Below are positions 5,158 through 33,964 of a stretch of 64,000 bases of DNA, piece after piece. Origin of the DNA: an uncultured Pelagibacteraceae bacterium. Lineage in GTDB: Bacteria; Pseudomonadota; Alphaproteobacteria; Pelagibacterales; Pelagibacteraceae. The stretch covers positions 62,001 through 126,000 of the forward strand of contig CACIRD010000001.1 in NCBI GenBank assembly GCA_902588965.1, read 5' to 3'. Within the stretch, counting starts at the first letter, position 1, and every line of letters begins with the position of its first letter. Made by a program: the position numbers and the translations under genes. The notes beneath the pieces are model-generated. The model did not search any database. It saw nothing but the letters and a program-made list of their open reading frames with translations, and was not told the origin of the DNA.

Positions 5158-7533
5158 ATGGCAAGTTTAGTTGGATCAAGAGTAGAAAGAAAAGAGGACA
5201 AAAAATTTTTAACAGGTAAAGGAAGATATACAGCTGATATTACTTTAGCACATCAAACCCATGCAGTTTTTGTAAGATCTCCTCATGCACGAGCACAAAT
5301 TAAAAAAGTTGATATAACAAAAGCCTCAAAATCTCCAGGAGTAGTTGCCATATTAACAGGTAAAGATTTAGCAGATGATAAAATAGGTGGACTTATCGCA
5401 GGTTGGAAAATAGTTAGTGAAGATGGATCGGACATGAAAGTTCCAGCACATCCAGCTTTGGCAACAGATATAGTTAATTATGTAGGGGACCATGTTGCGG
5501 TAGTCATTGCTGAAACTTTAGAAGATGCAAAGAATGCAGCTGAGTTAGTGAATGTAGATTATAAAATTTTAAAAGCTGTCGTTGAAACCGAAAAAGCAAT
5601 GGACTCAGATGCTATACACAAAGATATTCCAAAAAATTTATGTTATGACTGGTTACTTGGTGACAGATCTAAAACAAAGGCAGCATTTGATAGTGCTGAT
5701 AAAATTGTCAAAATTGATTTAAGAAATAACAGGTTAATACCTAACGCAATGGAACCTAGAGCATCTATAGGAGATTATAATCCATCTACAGAAGAAATTA
5801 CTTTATACACTGCAAATCAAAATCCACATTTAACTAGGTTAGTTATTTCAGCATTTAATGCTGTTGCACCGGAACATAAATTTAGAGTTGTTGCACCAGA
5901 TGTTGGAGGTGGTTTTGGTTCAAAAATTTACCCATATTCAGAAGATGTTGTTATAGCGTGGGCTGCAAAAAAAATACAAAGACCAGTTAAATGGGTGGCA
6001 GAAAGAACAGAGTCATTTTTATCTGATTGTCATGGAAGAGACCATGTTACTCATGCAGAGTTAGCTGTAAAATCTGATGGAACAGTTGTAGGTTTAAAAG
6101 TTGATACTATTGCTAATTTAGGTGGATACGCTTCACTTTTTGCAACAGTTACTCCAACTTACTTGTATGGACCTCTAGTTTTAGGATTATATAATATTCC
6201 AGCTGCTTACTGCAATGTTAAGGCTGTTTATACTAATACAGCTCCTGTTGATGCTTATAGAGGAGCGGGAAGACCAGAAGCAACTTATATGATTGAAAGA
6301 TTAATGTCTAAAGCAGCAATGGAATTGGGAATGGATCAAGTTGATTTTAGAAGAAAAAATTTTATTAAACAATTTCCACATCAACAAGCTTTGGTACACA
6401 ATATAGACTCTGGTGATTACGATGCGCACTTAGATAAAGCACTTGAAATTGCCGATTATAAAGGATTTGCAAAAAGAAAATCAGATTCAGAGTCAAAAGG
6501 AAAATTAAGAGGAATTGGTTTTTCAACTTATATAGAAGCTTGCGGTATTGCCCCATCAGCAGCTGTTATGTCTTTAGGAGCAGGTGTTGGTTTATGGGAG
6601 TCAGCCGAAGTTAGATTTAATCCAACTGGAAATGTTACTGTATTTACTGGTGCACATAGCCACGGACAAGGTCATGACACAGTATTTGCTCAAATTGTTG
6701 GTGATAAATTAGGAGTTGCATTAGAAAATGTAGAAGTTGTTCATGGCGATACTGACAAAGGACCTTTTGGTATGGGAACTTATGGCTCAAGATCTCTTGC
6801 AGTAGGGGGAACAGCTATAGATAAAGCGTGTGATAAAATTATTGCAAAAGGAAAAAGAGTAGCCGCAAAAATGCTTGAAGCAAGTGAAAGTGATGTAGAT
6901 TTTAAAGATGGAGAATTCATTGTAGCTAAATCAAACAAGAAAAAAACTATAGGAGAGATAGCATTTGCTTGTTATTTGCCTGGTCAGTATGGTGAAATTA
7001 AATCTCCATTACCCGAAGGTGATGAACCAGGACTTAAAGAAACAGCGTTTTATGATCCTATTAACTTTTCTTTTCCAGCAGGTACACACATTTGCGAGGT
7101 AGAAATTGATCCTGAAACAGGAGAGACCAAATTAGACAAATATTCTGCAGTTGATGACTTTGGAACGATAATGAATCCAATGATTGTCGAAGGTCAAGTT
7201 CATGGAGGTGTAGCACAAGGGGTAGGCCAGGCTTTATATGAAAATGCTCATTATGATGAGACGGGCCAATTGGTAACAGCATCTTATATGGATTACACAA
7301 TGCCTAGAGCTGACAATTTTCCAGAATTAAAAATTGATTATACTTGTACACCAGCTACATCAAACCCTTTAGGAGCCAAAGGTTGTGGAGAAGCTGGAGC
7401 AATCGCTGCCCCACCAGCAGTAATGAATGCTGTGGTTGATGCAATTGGTACAGATATTTCAATGCCTGCAACTGCTGAAAAGGTTTGGAATGCATGTAAG
7501 AATTTAAAAAAAACTAATTCAAAAGCAGCATAG
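5158..7533 (+). CDS. coxL: CoxL-like molybdopterin-binding large subunit, form II type
   Basis: Catalytic subunit of a xanthine-oxidase-family molybdenum hydroxylase, 791 residues, the normal length for CoxL. The active-site loop reads AYRGAGR at residues 366-372, which is the form II signature; true form I CO dehydrogenases carry AYXCSFR with a catalytic cysteine. Other family features are the DVGGGFGSK motif, the GAHSHGQGHDTVFAQI stretch and the final GCGEAGAIAAPPAVMNAV segment. Form II enzymes are common in marine bacteria, and their physiological substrate is uncertain: CO, purine-like heterocycles or aldehydes have all been considered. Part of coxS-L-M. Confidence 0.93.
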   Translation: MASLVGSRVERKEDKKFLTGKGRYTADITLAHQTHAVFVRSPHARAQIKKVDITKASKSPGVVAILTGKDLADDKIGGLIAGWKIVSEDGSDMKVPAHPALATDIVNYVGDHVAVVIAETLEDAKNAAELVNVDYKILKAVVETEKAMDSDAIHKDIPKNLCYDWLLGDRSKTKAAFDSADKIVKIDLRNNRLIPNAMEPRASIGDYNPSTEEITLYTANQNPHLTRLVISAFNAVAPEHKFRVVAPDVGGGFGSKIYPYSEDVVIAWAAKKIQRPVKWVAERTESFLSDCHGRDHVTHAELAVKSDGTVVGLKVDTIANLGGYASLFATVTPTYLYGPLVLGLYNIPAAYCNVKAVYTNTAPVDAYRGAGRPEATYMIERLMSKAAMELGMDQVDFRRKNFIKQFPHQQALVHNIDSGDYDAHLDKALEIADYKGFAKRKSDSESKGKLRGIGFSTYIEACGIAPSAAVMSLGAGVGLWESAEVRFNPTGNVTVFTGAHSHGQGHDTVFAQIVGDKLGVALENVEVVHGDTDKGPFGMGTYGSRSLAVGGTAIDKACDKIIAKGKRVAAKMLEASESDVDFKDGEFIVAKSNKKKTIGEIAFACYLPGQYGEIKSPLPEGDEPGLKETAFYDPINFSFPAGTHICEVEIDPETGETKLDKYSAVDDFGTIMNPMIVEGQVHGGVAQGVGQALYENAHYDETGQLVTASYMDYTMPRADNFPELKIDYTCTPATSNPLGAKGCGEAGAIAAPPAVMNAVVDAIGTDISMPATAEKVWNACKNLKKTNSKAA

Positions 7534-30737: not shown

Positions 30738-31739
30738 TTATATCCAGTTTGGAAAAGGCAGCCCTTTTTCTTGAAGAAACTTTTTATTAAACAGCTTGGA
30801 GTTGTATTTATCTGATCGATCACACAAAATAGTTACAATTGTTTTACCTGGACCTAATTTTTTTCCAAGTCTAATTGCTCCAGCTATATTAACTCCACAA
30901 CTGGTACCTAAACTTAAACCTTCATTTTCAATTAAATTAAACAATAAAGGTAAGGACTCGTTATCACTAATTGAAAAAGCTCCATCAATTTTGGCTTCAG
31001 CAAAGTTCGCTGTTATTCTGCTAGATCCTATACCTTCTGTTATAGATCCTCCTTCGCTTTTCAATTCTCCATTTTCTATATAATTATATAGAGATGATCC
31101 AGCTGGATCTGACAAATAAATTTTAACATCTTTGTTTTTCTCTTTTAAAAAATTACTTACTCCTGCGATGGTTCCACCAGTGCCAGATGAGCAAACAAAC
31201 CCATCTATTTTCCCCTCTGTTTGATCCCAAATTTCAGGTCCAGTTGTTTCGTAATGTCCTTTTGAATTAGCTGTGTTATCAAATTGATTTGCCCAAACTA
31301 CACCATAATTATTTGAACTTTTCAATTCATCAGCAAGTCTTCCAGCAACTTTGACATAATTACCATCCTCTTTGTATGGCTTAGGAGGCACAAGTCTTAA
31401 ATCAGCTCCAATATTTTTAAGCATATCTTTTTTTTCTTGTGTTTGGTTATCATTCATTACGATAACAGTTTTATAACCAACTGAATTCCCAATAAGACAC
31501 AATCCTATGCCAGTATTTCCTGCTGTTCCCTCGACTATGACTCCTCCTTTTGAAATAAGTTTTTTTTCTTCTGCATCTTTTATTAACGCTAAAGCCGCTC
31601 TATCTTTTACTGATCCCCCAGGGTTTAAGTATTCCGCTTTTCCATAAATTTGACAACCAGTTATTTCTGATGCAGCTTTTAATTTTACCAAAGGTGTGTT
31701 GCCTATACCTGCAATAAAATTATTTTGAAAGTTTTTCAT
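30738..31739 (-). CDS. cysK: Cysteine synthase A
   Basis: PLP enzyme of 333 residues that makes cysteine from O-acetylserine and sulfide. The PLP lysine is Lys45 in [10 protein letters not shown]. The substrate loop [10 protein letters not shown] and the phosphate-binding [10 protein letters not shown] are present, and the protein ends LPFPNWI as in the alphaproteobacterial group. Its start overlaps the stop of cysE by four bases, consistent with formation of the CysE-CysK complex. Cystathionine beta-synthase is a less likely alternative given the cysE neighbour. Confidence 0.93.
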
Positions 31740-32317
31740 TGATCTAACTTTGTATCACTACCAGGTGCAATTCCATATGGCTTAAATTCTCCAGATGTCT
31801 CACCAACATTTTTAGCAGGTATACCTACCATAACTGCATTTTCTGGGACATCTTTTGTTACAACCGCGTTAGCACCAACTTTAGCATTTCTCCCAACTAC
31901 CACAGGTCCTAATATTTGTGCACCAGAACCGACTACCACATTATCCATTAATGTAGGATGTCTTTTTATGTTTCTTTGATCATCAGAATTAATACTTGGC
32001 GATATGCCTCCTAAAGTAACCATATGATAGATGGTTACATTATCACCAATCTCAGAAGTTTCTCCAATTACAACACCCATGCCATGATCTATAAATAGGT
32101 TTTTACCAATTTTTGCTTTTGGATGAATTTCAATTCCAGTTAAAAATCTTGAAAATTGAGAAACAATTCTAGCAATTAAATCAAATTTTGCTACGGAGAA
32201 GAAATTTGCAATCTTGTGAAATAGAACAGCTTTAACACCAGGATATGTCAAAATCAAACTCAACTTTGATTTTGCAGCTGGATCTCTTTTTAAAATAGAT
32301 TCTAAATATTCGGTCAT
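31736..32317 (-). CDS. cysE: Serine O-acetyltransferase
   Basis: Left-handed beta-helix acetyltransferase of 193 residues. It acetylates serine to O-acetylserine for CysK. Hexapeptide repeats run from about residue 60, with the catalytic [14 protein letters not shown] and HMVTLGG motifs and the GAGAQ-like [10 protein letters not shown] turn. It is shorter than the 273-residue E. coli enzyme because the N-terminal helical domain is reduced. It is translationally coupled to cysK. Confidence 0.93.
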
Positions 32318-32350
32318 AATTGTTTTAGAGAATTTAGATTAACTAAAAAA

Positions 32351-32470
32351 CTACTTCTTACAACAGCAAGTAGCTTCGCTTGGCTGACAAACACAATTTT
32401 TGTTACCATCACAGTCACAAAAATCGTATGTGCAATTTGTACATTTACATTCTTGGTTATTACAAGCCAT
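32351..32470 (-). CDS. Cysteine-rich 39-residue metallothionein-like protein
   Basis: A short minus-strand frame, ATG at 32470 to TAG at 32351, encodes 39 residues of which 11 are cysteine: positions 3, 8, 10, 13, 18, 20, 26, 28, 35, 36 and 37. CxC spacing occurs three times (8-10, 18-20, 26-28) and a CCC triplet closes the protein before KK. The CxC spacing and cysteine density are those of metallothionein-like metal chelators. I do not recognise it as a known family, and it has no clear Shine-Dalgarno. It fills the gap between cysE and a persulfide dioxygenase gene on the same strand, a sensible place for a thiol/metal protein. Confidence 0.75.
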   Translation of the reverse strand: MACNNQECKCTNCTYDFCDCDGNKNCVCQPSEATCCCKK

Positions 32471-32522
32471 TAAATTAATATAAGCTTTATATGTTAAAAT
32501 ACAACAGCAATCTTGCCGCAAA

Positions 32523-33215
32523 TTATATTTGATCTAGTGTAAGGCCTTTAACATTTGCTGGCACCGCAATATCCATCATTTTTGGATTAGCCAATTTTAA
32601 ATTATTCATAATGTCAGCGTATTCTTCTTTTGAATTAACTTGTAATCTTGGATTATTATTTCTTTCATTTTCAATTGTAGAATATTTCTTTCCATTATAA
32701 TCATGCGCAGGAAATACTAAAGTTTTCTCGGGAAGCTTTAGTAATTTATTAAATAAAGAGTCATATGCGTCATAAGAACTTCCATTTTGAAAATCTGTTC
32801 TTCCAGTACCGTTTATTAAAAGAGTATCACCTGTAAAAATTCTATCATTCATTAAATAACTATAAGAACAGTCTGTGTGACCTGGTGTATAAATTGCTTT
32901 AAGTTGAATATTTTCAATATTAATTTTTTCATTATCTTTTATTTTTAAATCGATTACTTCAGACTTTGAATTTTCACCCATAACTCTGGTACAGTTTGTT
33001 CTTTTGTTTAGTTCATTTAAACCTGTTATATGATCAGCATGTATGTGAGTATCTATTACCTTGACCAACTTAAGTTCTAATTCCTCTAAAATTTTTATGT
33101 ATTCATTTGTATGCTCAATTACAGGATCTATGATCAGAGCTTCTCTGCCTTTATCGCTAGCTATAATGTACGTGTAAGTTGAAGATTTAGTGTCAAATAA
33201 TTGTTTAAAGATCAT
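32523..33215 (-). CDS. ETHE1-like persulfide dioxygenase (MBL fold)
   Basis: A 230-residue metallo-beta-lactamase-fold protein of the ETHE1/glyoxalase-II-like group. It oxidises glutathione persulfide to sulfite with a mononuclear iron. The metal motif is DTHIHADHITG, with further ligands in YTPGHTDCS, FTGDTLLINGTGRTDF and FPAHDYNG, all matching ETHE1 more than glyoxalase II. The C-terminus ends MMDIAVPANVKG. It shares a strand with cysE-cysK and the cysteine-rich protein. Sulfite produced can be oxidised by the sulfite dehydrogenase at 12392. It diverges from a peroxiredoxin gene. Confidence 0.88.
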   Translation of the reverse strand: MIFKQLFDTKSSTYTYIIASDKGREALIIDPVIEHTNEYIKILEELELKLVKVIDTHIHADHITGLNELNKRTNCTRVMGENSKSEVIDLKIKDNEKINIENIQLKAIYTPGHTDCSYSYLMNDRIFTGDTLLINGTGRTDFQNGSSYDAYDSLFNKLLKLPEKTLVFPAHDYNGKKYSTIENERNNNPRLQVNSKEEYADIMNNLKLANPKMMDIAVPANVKGLTLDQI

Positions 33216-33239: not shown

Positions 33240-33268
33240 TTGCAAGGCAAATCAATCTTGCATATAAT
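33240..33268 (+). promoter_or_regulatory. Sigma-70-like promoter before the peroxiredoxin gene
   Basis: A TTGCAA box at 33240-33245 and a perfect TATAAT at 33263-33268 are separated by exactly 17 bases, and lie 33 bases upstream of the peroxiredoxin ATG in the divergent gap. This is the best promoter-like match I saw in the window. Confidence 0.65.
33241..33262. promoter_or_regulatory. Palindromic operator candidate within the promoter spacer
   Basis: TGCAAG at 33241-33246 and CTTGCA at 33257-33262 form a perfect 6-bp inverted repeat with 10 bases between. It covers the spacer between the promoter boxes of the peroxiredoxin gene. A dimeric regulator bound here would block RNA polymerase; the divergent persulfide dioxygenase gene might share it. 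No regulator gene is adjacent. Confidence 0.45.
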
Positions 33269-33301: not shown

Positions 33302-33964
33302 ATGACATTAAAAATAAATAGTTTAGCTCCCGATTTTAAGGCAAAAACACAAGAAGGTGATATTTCATTTCACGAGTGGCTTGGGGACAGTTGGGGTGTA
33401 TTATTTTCGCACCCAAAAGATTTTACTCCAGTGTGTACAACAGAATTAGGTTCATTGGCTAAAATGAAACCCGAGTTTGATGCAAGAAATGTAAAGGTAA
33501 TCGGTTTAAGTGTAGATCCAGTTTCAGACCATGTAAAATGGTTAGAGGATATTAAAGATGTGTGTGGTATGAAACCATCTTATCCAATTATAGCAGATGA
33601 AAAGCTAGAAATTGCAAAACTTTATAATATGCTAGAAGGTGATGCCGGAACAACATCAATGGGAAGAACAGCAGTAGATAACGAAACAGTCAGAACTGTC
33701 TATGTTATTAGACCAGATAAAAGAATAGGATTGTTTCTTACTTATCCGATGACAACAGGTAGAAATTTTGCTGAAATATTAAGAGCAATAGACTCTATGC
33801 AAAGAACAGCAAAACATAAAATAGCAACACCAGCTGATTGGAAGCCAGGTGAAAAAGTAATTATAGTTCCCAAAGTAACTAATGAAGAAGCGAAAAAAAT
33901 ATATCCAGATGGATGGGAAACTATAAAACCGTATTTAAGAAAAGTACCAGATCCACATAAATAA
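33302..33964 (+). CDS. 1-Cys peroxiredoxin (Prx6 type)
   Basis: Peroxide reductase of 220 residues in the Prx6 group. The peroxidatic cysteine is Cys45 in FTPVCTTELG. The long C-terminal arm with IIVPKVTNEEAKKIYPDGW marks the Prx6 subgroup rather than the 2-Cys AhpC type. It reduces hydrogen peroxide and organic hydroperoxides in the cytoplasm. It has its own promoter and a strong terminator, so it is a single-gene unit. Confidence 0.93.
   Translation: MTLKINSLAPDFKAKTQEGDISFHEWLGDSWGVLFSHPKDFTPVCTTELGSLAKMKPEFDARNVKVIGLSVDPVSDHVKWLEDIKDVCGMKPSYPIIADEKLEIAKLYNMLEGDAGTTSMGRTAVDNETVRTVYVIRPDKRIGLFLTYPMTTGRNFAEILRAIDSMQRTAKHKIATPADWKPGEKVIIVPKVTNEEAKKIYPDGWETIKPYLRKVPDPHK

Follow-up and report, generated by a model that had tools for sequence, protein, structure and literature searches.

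The 39-codon, Cys-rich frame at positions 32351 to 32470 on the minus strand of the window, by which we mean the entire stretch of 64,000 nucleotides analysed here, is a real conserved gene. It probably encodes a metallothionein-like thiolate protein that may bind metal ions, a reading held with moderate confidence on the basis of the sequence. The frame runs from an ATG start to a TAG stop (MACNNQECKCTNCTYDFCDCDGNKNCVCQPSEATCCCKK), is conserved in relatives and belongs to a SAR11-type genome of 1.14 Mb in 14 contigs. All features that the preliminary description had ascribed to the product are present, namely 11 Cys residues, CxC pairs (three of them) and a CCC run, which ends two residues short of the C-terminus. 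The Cys share is 28%, compared with 12% for the runner-up among the 184 window frames of 25–80 aa, and 30 dinucleotide shuffles reached at most 23% (9 Cys). A spurious frame or an assembly artefact might be suspected from the short length and the absence from the Pfam, NCBIfam and PHROGs family libraries. However, the probability of such an origin is negligible, as it is strongly countered by conservation and selection over 91 distinct coding sequences and by a Cys content exceeding that of all 30 shuffles.

Purifying selection on the Cys residues became evident in an alignment of 90 distinct coding sequences, in which 987 of the 990 cells of the 11 Cys columns hold Cys, and in which TGT and TGC are both seen at every Cys column and freely exchanged. 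Mean pN/pS was 0.002 for the Cys columns, 0.66 for the other columns, which are thus weakly constrained, and 0.36 overall. Further residues mostly kept in the 90 sequences are N5 (87), P30 (84), N12 (83) and D16 (75). The spacing MxCx4CxCx2Cx4CxC-x(2-5)-CxCx6CCC is kept in the aligned sequences, with one loop accounting for the main length change, and together with the selection on Cys it backs the metallothionein-like layout proposed in the preliminary description. Since 11 thiols are fixed in spacing under free synonymous change, and since an attenuator would need Cys codons but not their spacing, a thiolate-cluster protein is the reading that we prefer. With its 11–12 thiols, the folded chain of usually 36–39 residues would enclose and buffer ions of a soft metal (Cu(I), Zn or Cd). 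A metal binder is also favoured because most frames are devoid of His (71/115) or of aromatic residues (102/115), the 115 loci being two overlapping sets (58 + 57) with 91 distinct coding sequences and not independent genomes.

The CCC run, encoded by codons 35–37 (32360–32368, minus strand), is Cys at each column in 90/90 aligned sequences, although this run was itself a condition for collecting the rows. Single Cys losses were seen in four carriers: C13Y in L026, C10R in L029, C20S in L057 and C3Y in L052. The last of these lies outside the alignment, as Cys3 and the CCC run were both collection conditions, and so does L091 with its longer insertion. The non-SAR11 Cys-run loci L103, L104, L106, L113, L131, L132, L151, L168 and L178 had been dropped beforehand. 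A smaller alignment, A1, comprises 24 of the first 30 loci. The six omitted were three with a peptide already represented (L013, L014, L023), two in which one Cys is lost (L026, L029) and the truncated L019, and the list of invariant positions in A1 is therefore partly a result of choice; the 90-sequence alignment includes both L026 and L029.

Within the genus, a protein search of 151 genomes gave a match at E <= 1 in 38. Using the profile A1 of 24 relatives, the frame was found in 4 of 14 genera of the family (31 of 397 genomes), in 35 of 297 genomes at the order level, all of the same family among the matches listed, and at the class level in 1 of 289, namely the window's own. Scanning public genomes for the DNA pattern added at least 57 further loci with a full frame; among the matches listed, those with a taxon given were Pelagibacteraceae. 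cysE is present in 110 of the 151 genus genomes, and its upstream region is known in 91 of these, of which 32 carry the full frame, 2 (G150, G048) a truncated frame and 57 none. The 32 comprise 30 of the 31 syntenic protein matches as well as G143 and G025, with G054 entered from its match line alone; 19 cysE-bearing genomes are outside the 91, and four of them (G012, G082, G086, G118) are without the frame. The gene is dispensable, since it is missing from 57 of the 91 known cysE upstream regions. The earlier expectation that such proteins are uncommon in small genomes fails for this genus, and the check whether relatives keep the frame with its Cys pattern intact came out in favour of a gene.

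In the family libraries, the 39-aa protein matched no Pfam, NCBIfam or PHROGs model, and at E <= 1 zero Pfam families were obtained for it, for a SAR11 relative and for other look-alikes. The canonical bacterial metallothionein (PF02069, Metallothio_Pro) was rejected as its identity, given that this model was unmatched by the protein and found in 0 of 61 SAR11 genomes; 3 of 14 control genomes matched, one of them over the cut-off. Sequence matches in the PDB were confined to LDL-receptor-type Cys-rich modules at E about 2 and were judged to be due to chance. A tblastn search against 50,697 phage records yielded no match for the 39-aa peptide and one weak match (E = 10) for a viral look-alike peptide, both results being uninformative due to the low-complexity filter. 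The lack of a family match or PDB relative, the truncated frames of L019 and L301 described below, the four carriers with one Cys fewer and the dispensability of the gene count against the metal-binder reading.

A short chain, a high Cys content and conserved CxC/CC motifs define metallothioneins in the broad sense, and all of them are found in the 39-aa protein. The bacterial metallothioneins SmtA, BmtA and PmtA are likewise small and Cys-dense with CxC pairs, and the ligands of SmtA are Cys plus His. In contrast, the SAR11 protein usually has 36–39 aa, no conserved His and a CCC tail, and its frame is predicted to be leaderless, heads cysE-cysK and is unmatched by any Pfam model. A marine cyanobacterial metallothionein stores zinc according to the accessible part of PMC9337993. 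A search of the open-access literature retrieved no report on a SAR11 metallothionein, and no description of this Cys-rich gene was found there, including the available portions of PMC2704228 and PMC9516812.

The genomic setting points to cysteine synthesis. Downstream of the frame, cysE (31736–32317, minus strand; serine O-acetyltransferase, over the NF041874 and TIGR01172 cut-offs) starts 33 nt past the frame stop, and its end is overlapped by cysK (30738–31739, minus strand; cysteine synthase, over the NF007989 cut-off). cysE follows in 112/115 loci, at a distance of 25–38 nt in 111 and, in addition, in L154, where the locus ends within cysE. On the other side, 52 nt upstream of the frame, lies a metallo-beta-lactamase-fold, ETHE1-like gene (32523–33215, minus strand), which precedes the frame in 109/115 loci. 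The label "persulfide dioxygenase" given to it earlier is plausible, as Pfam Lactamase_B scores over its cut-off, but it is not established, since the specific models remained below theirs (hydroxyacylglutathione hydrolase 114 of 200.8 bits; Blh sulfur dioxygenase 100.4 of 625). This adjacency might suggest a sulfane-sulfur carrier, the thiols of which take up persulfide and pass it to the ETHE1-like dioxygenase. Such a function is very unlikely, because the ETHE1-like gene occurs in 18/20 non-carriers and was not found in 6/6 carriers of genus g4, and because promoter-like elements of the frame's own separate it from this gene. The ETHE1-like gene is present in 16/16 tested carriers of genus g1, and in seven non-carriers it adjoins cysE with a gap of 23–43 nt and no frame. 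This pattern across carriers and non-carriers rules out the ETHE1-like partnership as the main idea and leaves the gene as a mere neighbour. Of the setting proposed at the outset, the role with the dioxygenase thus falls away and the cysE-cysK link stands: the usual partner of the frame is cysE(-cysK), because cysE follows in nearly all loci and because the ETHE1-like gene is common in non-carriers and found in none of the six g4 carriers.

In the three loci without cysE (L045, L047, L049), the frame retains all 11 Cys and heads msrB; cysE was not found in these genomes, which are 70–80% complete. Within genus g4, the order is frame-cysE followed by an msrB-like gene in L032, L040 and L042, and frame-msrB directly in L045, L047 and L049; msrB scored over the TIGR00357 cut-off in 4/4 loci tested (L040, L045, L047, L049). 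A redox or cysteine store, i.e. a chain acting in the company of msrB or a peroxiredoxin as a reserve or buffer of thiols, either to serve the cysteine pathway or to counter oxidants, would agree with the position next to msrB in these three loci, with the nearby msrB behind cysE in L040 and with a 1-Cys peroxiredoxin gene in the vicinity of the frame in the window. We consider this explanation unlikely, as a store has no need of a fixed Cys spacing. The persistence of the frame with all of its Cys in the absence of an adjacent cysE favours a protein function. Two side observations concern these neighbours. A near-consensus promoter (TTGCAA, 17, TATAAT) is located at 33240–33268 on the plus strand ahead of the 1-Cys peroxiredoxin gene (33302–33964), and G218, a 99% complete genome of the same genus, yielded no cysE and no ETHE1-like gene, which suggests a possible cysteine auxotroph.

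Upstream of the frame, sequence and family test identified a -10-like box, TATATT (32477–32482, minus strand), that ends 6 nt ahead of the ATG and a -35-like box, TTGTAT (32499–32504, minus strand), separated from it by a spacer of 16. Among 44 representatives, a TTG about 35 nt upstream of the ATG is accompanied in most cases by a TATAAT-like box at 4–9 nt. A strict two-box test was passed by 25/44, in comparison to an average of 0.7 and a maximum of 5 in plain letter shuffles and to 3/67 longer window frames, which are longest-ATG frames of >= 100 aa with unchecked gene starts. A consensus promoter scan of the window did not list the -35/-10 pair ahead of the 39-codon frame. Given that the ATG lies about 6 nt past this conserved pair, a leaderless message is predicted, the 5' end of which would coincide with the start codon or lie close to it. 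We infer leaderless transcription and co-transcription, as well as a partial terminator or attenuator function of the hairpin described below. A message transcribed from the frame's own promoter would carry the frame as its leading cistron, followed by cysE and cysK, so that a cysteine-hungry protein would be made alongside the cysteine-making enzymes. In genomes without the frame (L286–L288, L290, L292, L317–L327), an ACTATATA box often lies 6–9 nt before the ATG of cysE, the message of which may therefore start without a leader in such genomes.

The end of the frame carries a second layer of selection at the RNA level. A hairpin at 32347–32377 (minus strand) spans codons 32–39, the stop and the first bases beyond, with the CCC codons in its 5' arm and loop, and is more stable than expected from synonymous codons drawn from the family (p = 0.003). 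The same holds at p < 0.05 for 22/37 representatives (Fisher 7e-22, a value that is too small because related sequences are treated as independent). The selected hairpin is missing in 15/37, including the lineages that end in CCCC and the two loci lacking cysE that were tested. In the same synonymous test, the control stretches of codons 2–15 and 8–21 gave 1/37 and 3/37, respectively, and the stretch of codons 14–27 was not clean (9/37; Fisher 3e-5, a value too small for the same reason). This latter stretch, 32390–32431, shows a weaker second sign of selection at the RNA level and could pair alternatively with the hairpin. Codon usage at Lys39 is also biased: AAG was found in 41/49 cases, compared with AAA in 294/321 Lys codons elsewhere, and without the 36-aa lineage AAG still outnumbers AAA by 14 to 6 at Lys39 versus 23 to 179 elsewhere (AAG in 14/20 vs 23/202). 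Two pairs alternate among 33 sequences, one between G-C (15) and C-G (12) and another between A-T (11) and C-G (11); in the 36-aa lineage (27 sequences), the hairpin pairs in a different register. Across 36 representatives, the share of paired cells was 0.778 (shuffle mean 0.696, maximum 0.735) and the covariation score 2752 (shuffle maximum 2310). The number of pairs changed on both sides, 8 versus a shuffle average of 7.0, is not decisive. When the region was folded as a whole, the result was ordinary (mean z -0.09 and -0.28; 60/76 representatives), and a signal came solely from the synonymous-codon test at the 3' end. The only known RNA family matched up to E = 1, STnc260 with 25.3 of 100 bits on the opposite strand, was judged to be a chance match.

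Situated between the frame and cysE, the hairpin would terminate transcription in part or attenuate it. In the window, the frame stop is followed by six T (32345–32350). The hairpin was not called in a terminator scan, a T run of five or more follows it in only 9/33, and it stops short of the cysE start, 25–38 nt beyond the frame stop. In two in-frame truncated frames, L019 (21 aa) and L301 (19 aa), the middle Cys are lost, and the start, CCC and the hairpin are kept; the hairpin values are -10.9 and -8.8, respectively, the latter compared with -6.4 in a slightly different stretch for most full-length kin.

These properties raise the question of whether the frame is merely a cysteine-responsive attenuator, i.e. 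a leaderless sORF that senses cysteinyl-tRNA by its translation and yields a peptide without a job. A ribosome held at CCC would cover the hairpin and thus allow expression of cysE-cysK, whereas plentiful cysteine would let the hairpin form and cysE output drop. This is the first rival of the metallothionein-like reading, and it has a precedent in the mycobacterial poly-Cys leaderless sORF attenuators (Canestrari et al. 2020), as far as these are described in the accessible sections of PMC9031893 and PMC9094748. Like these, the SAR11 frame has a predicted leaderless start, for which the promoter-like elements of 25/44 representatives speak, contiguous Cys codons near its end, a predicted structure over them and a cysteine-pathway gene directly downstream (112/115). 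Further arguments for it are the universal CCC in the alignment, the RNA-level selection on the CCC hairpin with its alternating pairs, the Lys39 codon bias, which extends beyond the 36-aa lineage, and the retention of just start, CCC and hairpin in the truncated frames. The constant cysE link and the CCC hairpin are indeed more in keeping with a regulatory frame than with a simple buffer of metal ions.

However, in comparison with the mycobacterial attenuators as presented in the same sections, the SAR11 frame adds eight Cys in fixed spacing and persists without cysE, and its hairpin leaves the next start codon uncovered and is missing in some lineages. The eight position-fixed Cys upstream of CCC are needless for stalling and would hold up the ribosome ahead of the hairpin, the frames without cysE retain all Cys, and there is no selected hairpin in the CCCC lineages or in loci without cysE. 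Moreover, the cysE start lies beyond the hairpin, and T runs of at least five are scarce. According to the available part of PMC5069961, cysE and cysK were not upregulated in strain HTCC1062 under sulfur limitation, although the presence of the frame in this strain is not established. An attenuator without a functional peptide is thus somewhat unlikely and ranks behind the metallothionein-like protein because eight Cys are fixed ahead of CCC and because some loci lack cysE. A protein function is further favoured because the CCCC lineages keep the protein without a selected hairpin.

A combination of both functions is conceivable, in which the metallothionein-like buffer is made from a message whose CCC hairpin gauges cysteinyl-tRNA and sets the cysE-cysK output. 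We still hold this dual role as a tentative possibility, because the selection on the RNA, a start predicted to lack a leader and the linkage to cysE fit the mycobacterial attenuators in the form given in these sources. It overlaps with the metallothionein-like reading, so that the likelihoods assigned to the two are not additive. If it is true, no transcription factor would be needed to match the cysteine demand of the buffer to the CysE-CysK supply. The lineage is one in which sulfur genes are known to be controlled by RNA: "Ca. Pelagibacter ubique" is without assimilatory sulfate reduction and controls sulfur by SAM riboswitches, as stated in the accessible text of PMC5069961. A hairpin sensing cysteine would extend the mycobacterial design to a streamlined alphaproteobacterium and unite two functions in one short message. 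Cells of SAR11 are very abundant. Ideas on copper or zinc handling in such streamlined cells would be altered by a conserved protein that buffers metals.

Similar short frames are not confined to SAR11. Viral contigs (L182, L184, L186, L198, L201, L208, L212 and others) contain short Cys-rich frames of about 21–62 aa, which share with the SAR11 frame the pattern M-x-C-x-N-x2-C-x-C-x-N-C-x4-C-x-C, often followed by C-x-C. Both Asn5 and Asn12 are present in 22 of 45 distinct viral short peptides, and counts of viral and other non-SAR11 look-alikes from the pattern scan of public genomes are to be read as "at least". In contrast to the SAR11 frame, these 22 peptides lack CCC, and 17 of them are accompanied by a Shine-Dalgarno-like string. 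Those viral short frames that were scanned had no PHROGs or Pfam match and no family name was found for them; genes for phage tail, head or nucleotide metabolism lie beside the viral frames checked (L186, L198, L208). Judged from their peptides, the viral frames are possible phage metallothioneins. The N-terminal pattern shared with CCC-less look-alikes would remain unexplained by an attenuator role and therefore favours a protein function of the SAR11 frame. Finally, L109 (Mycoplasmopsis iners, at about position 7315) and L134 (a Halobacteriales MAG contig) contain short frames that are rich in Cys and resemble the SAR11 frame in their N-terminal pattern, likewise without a Pfam or PHROGs match.
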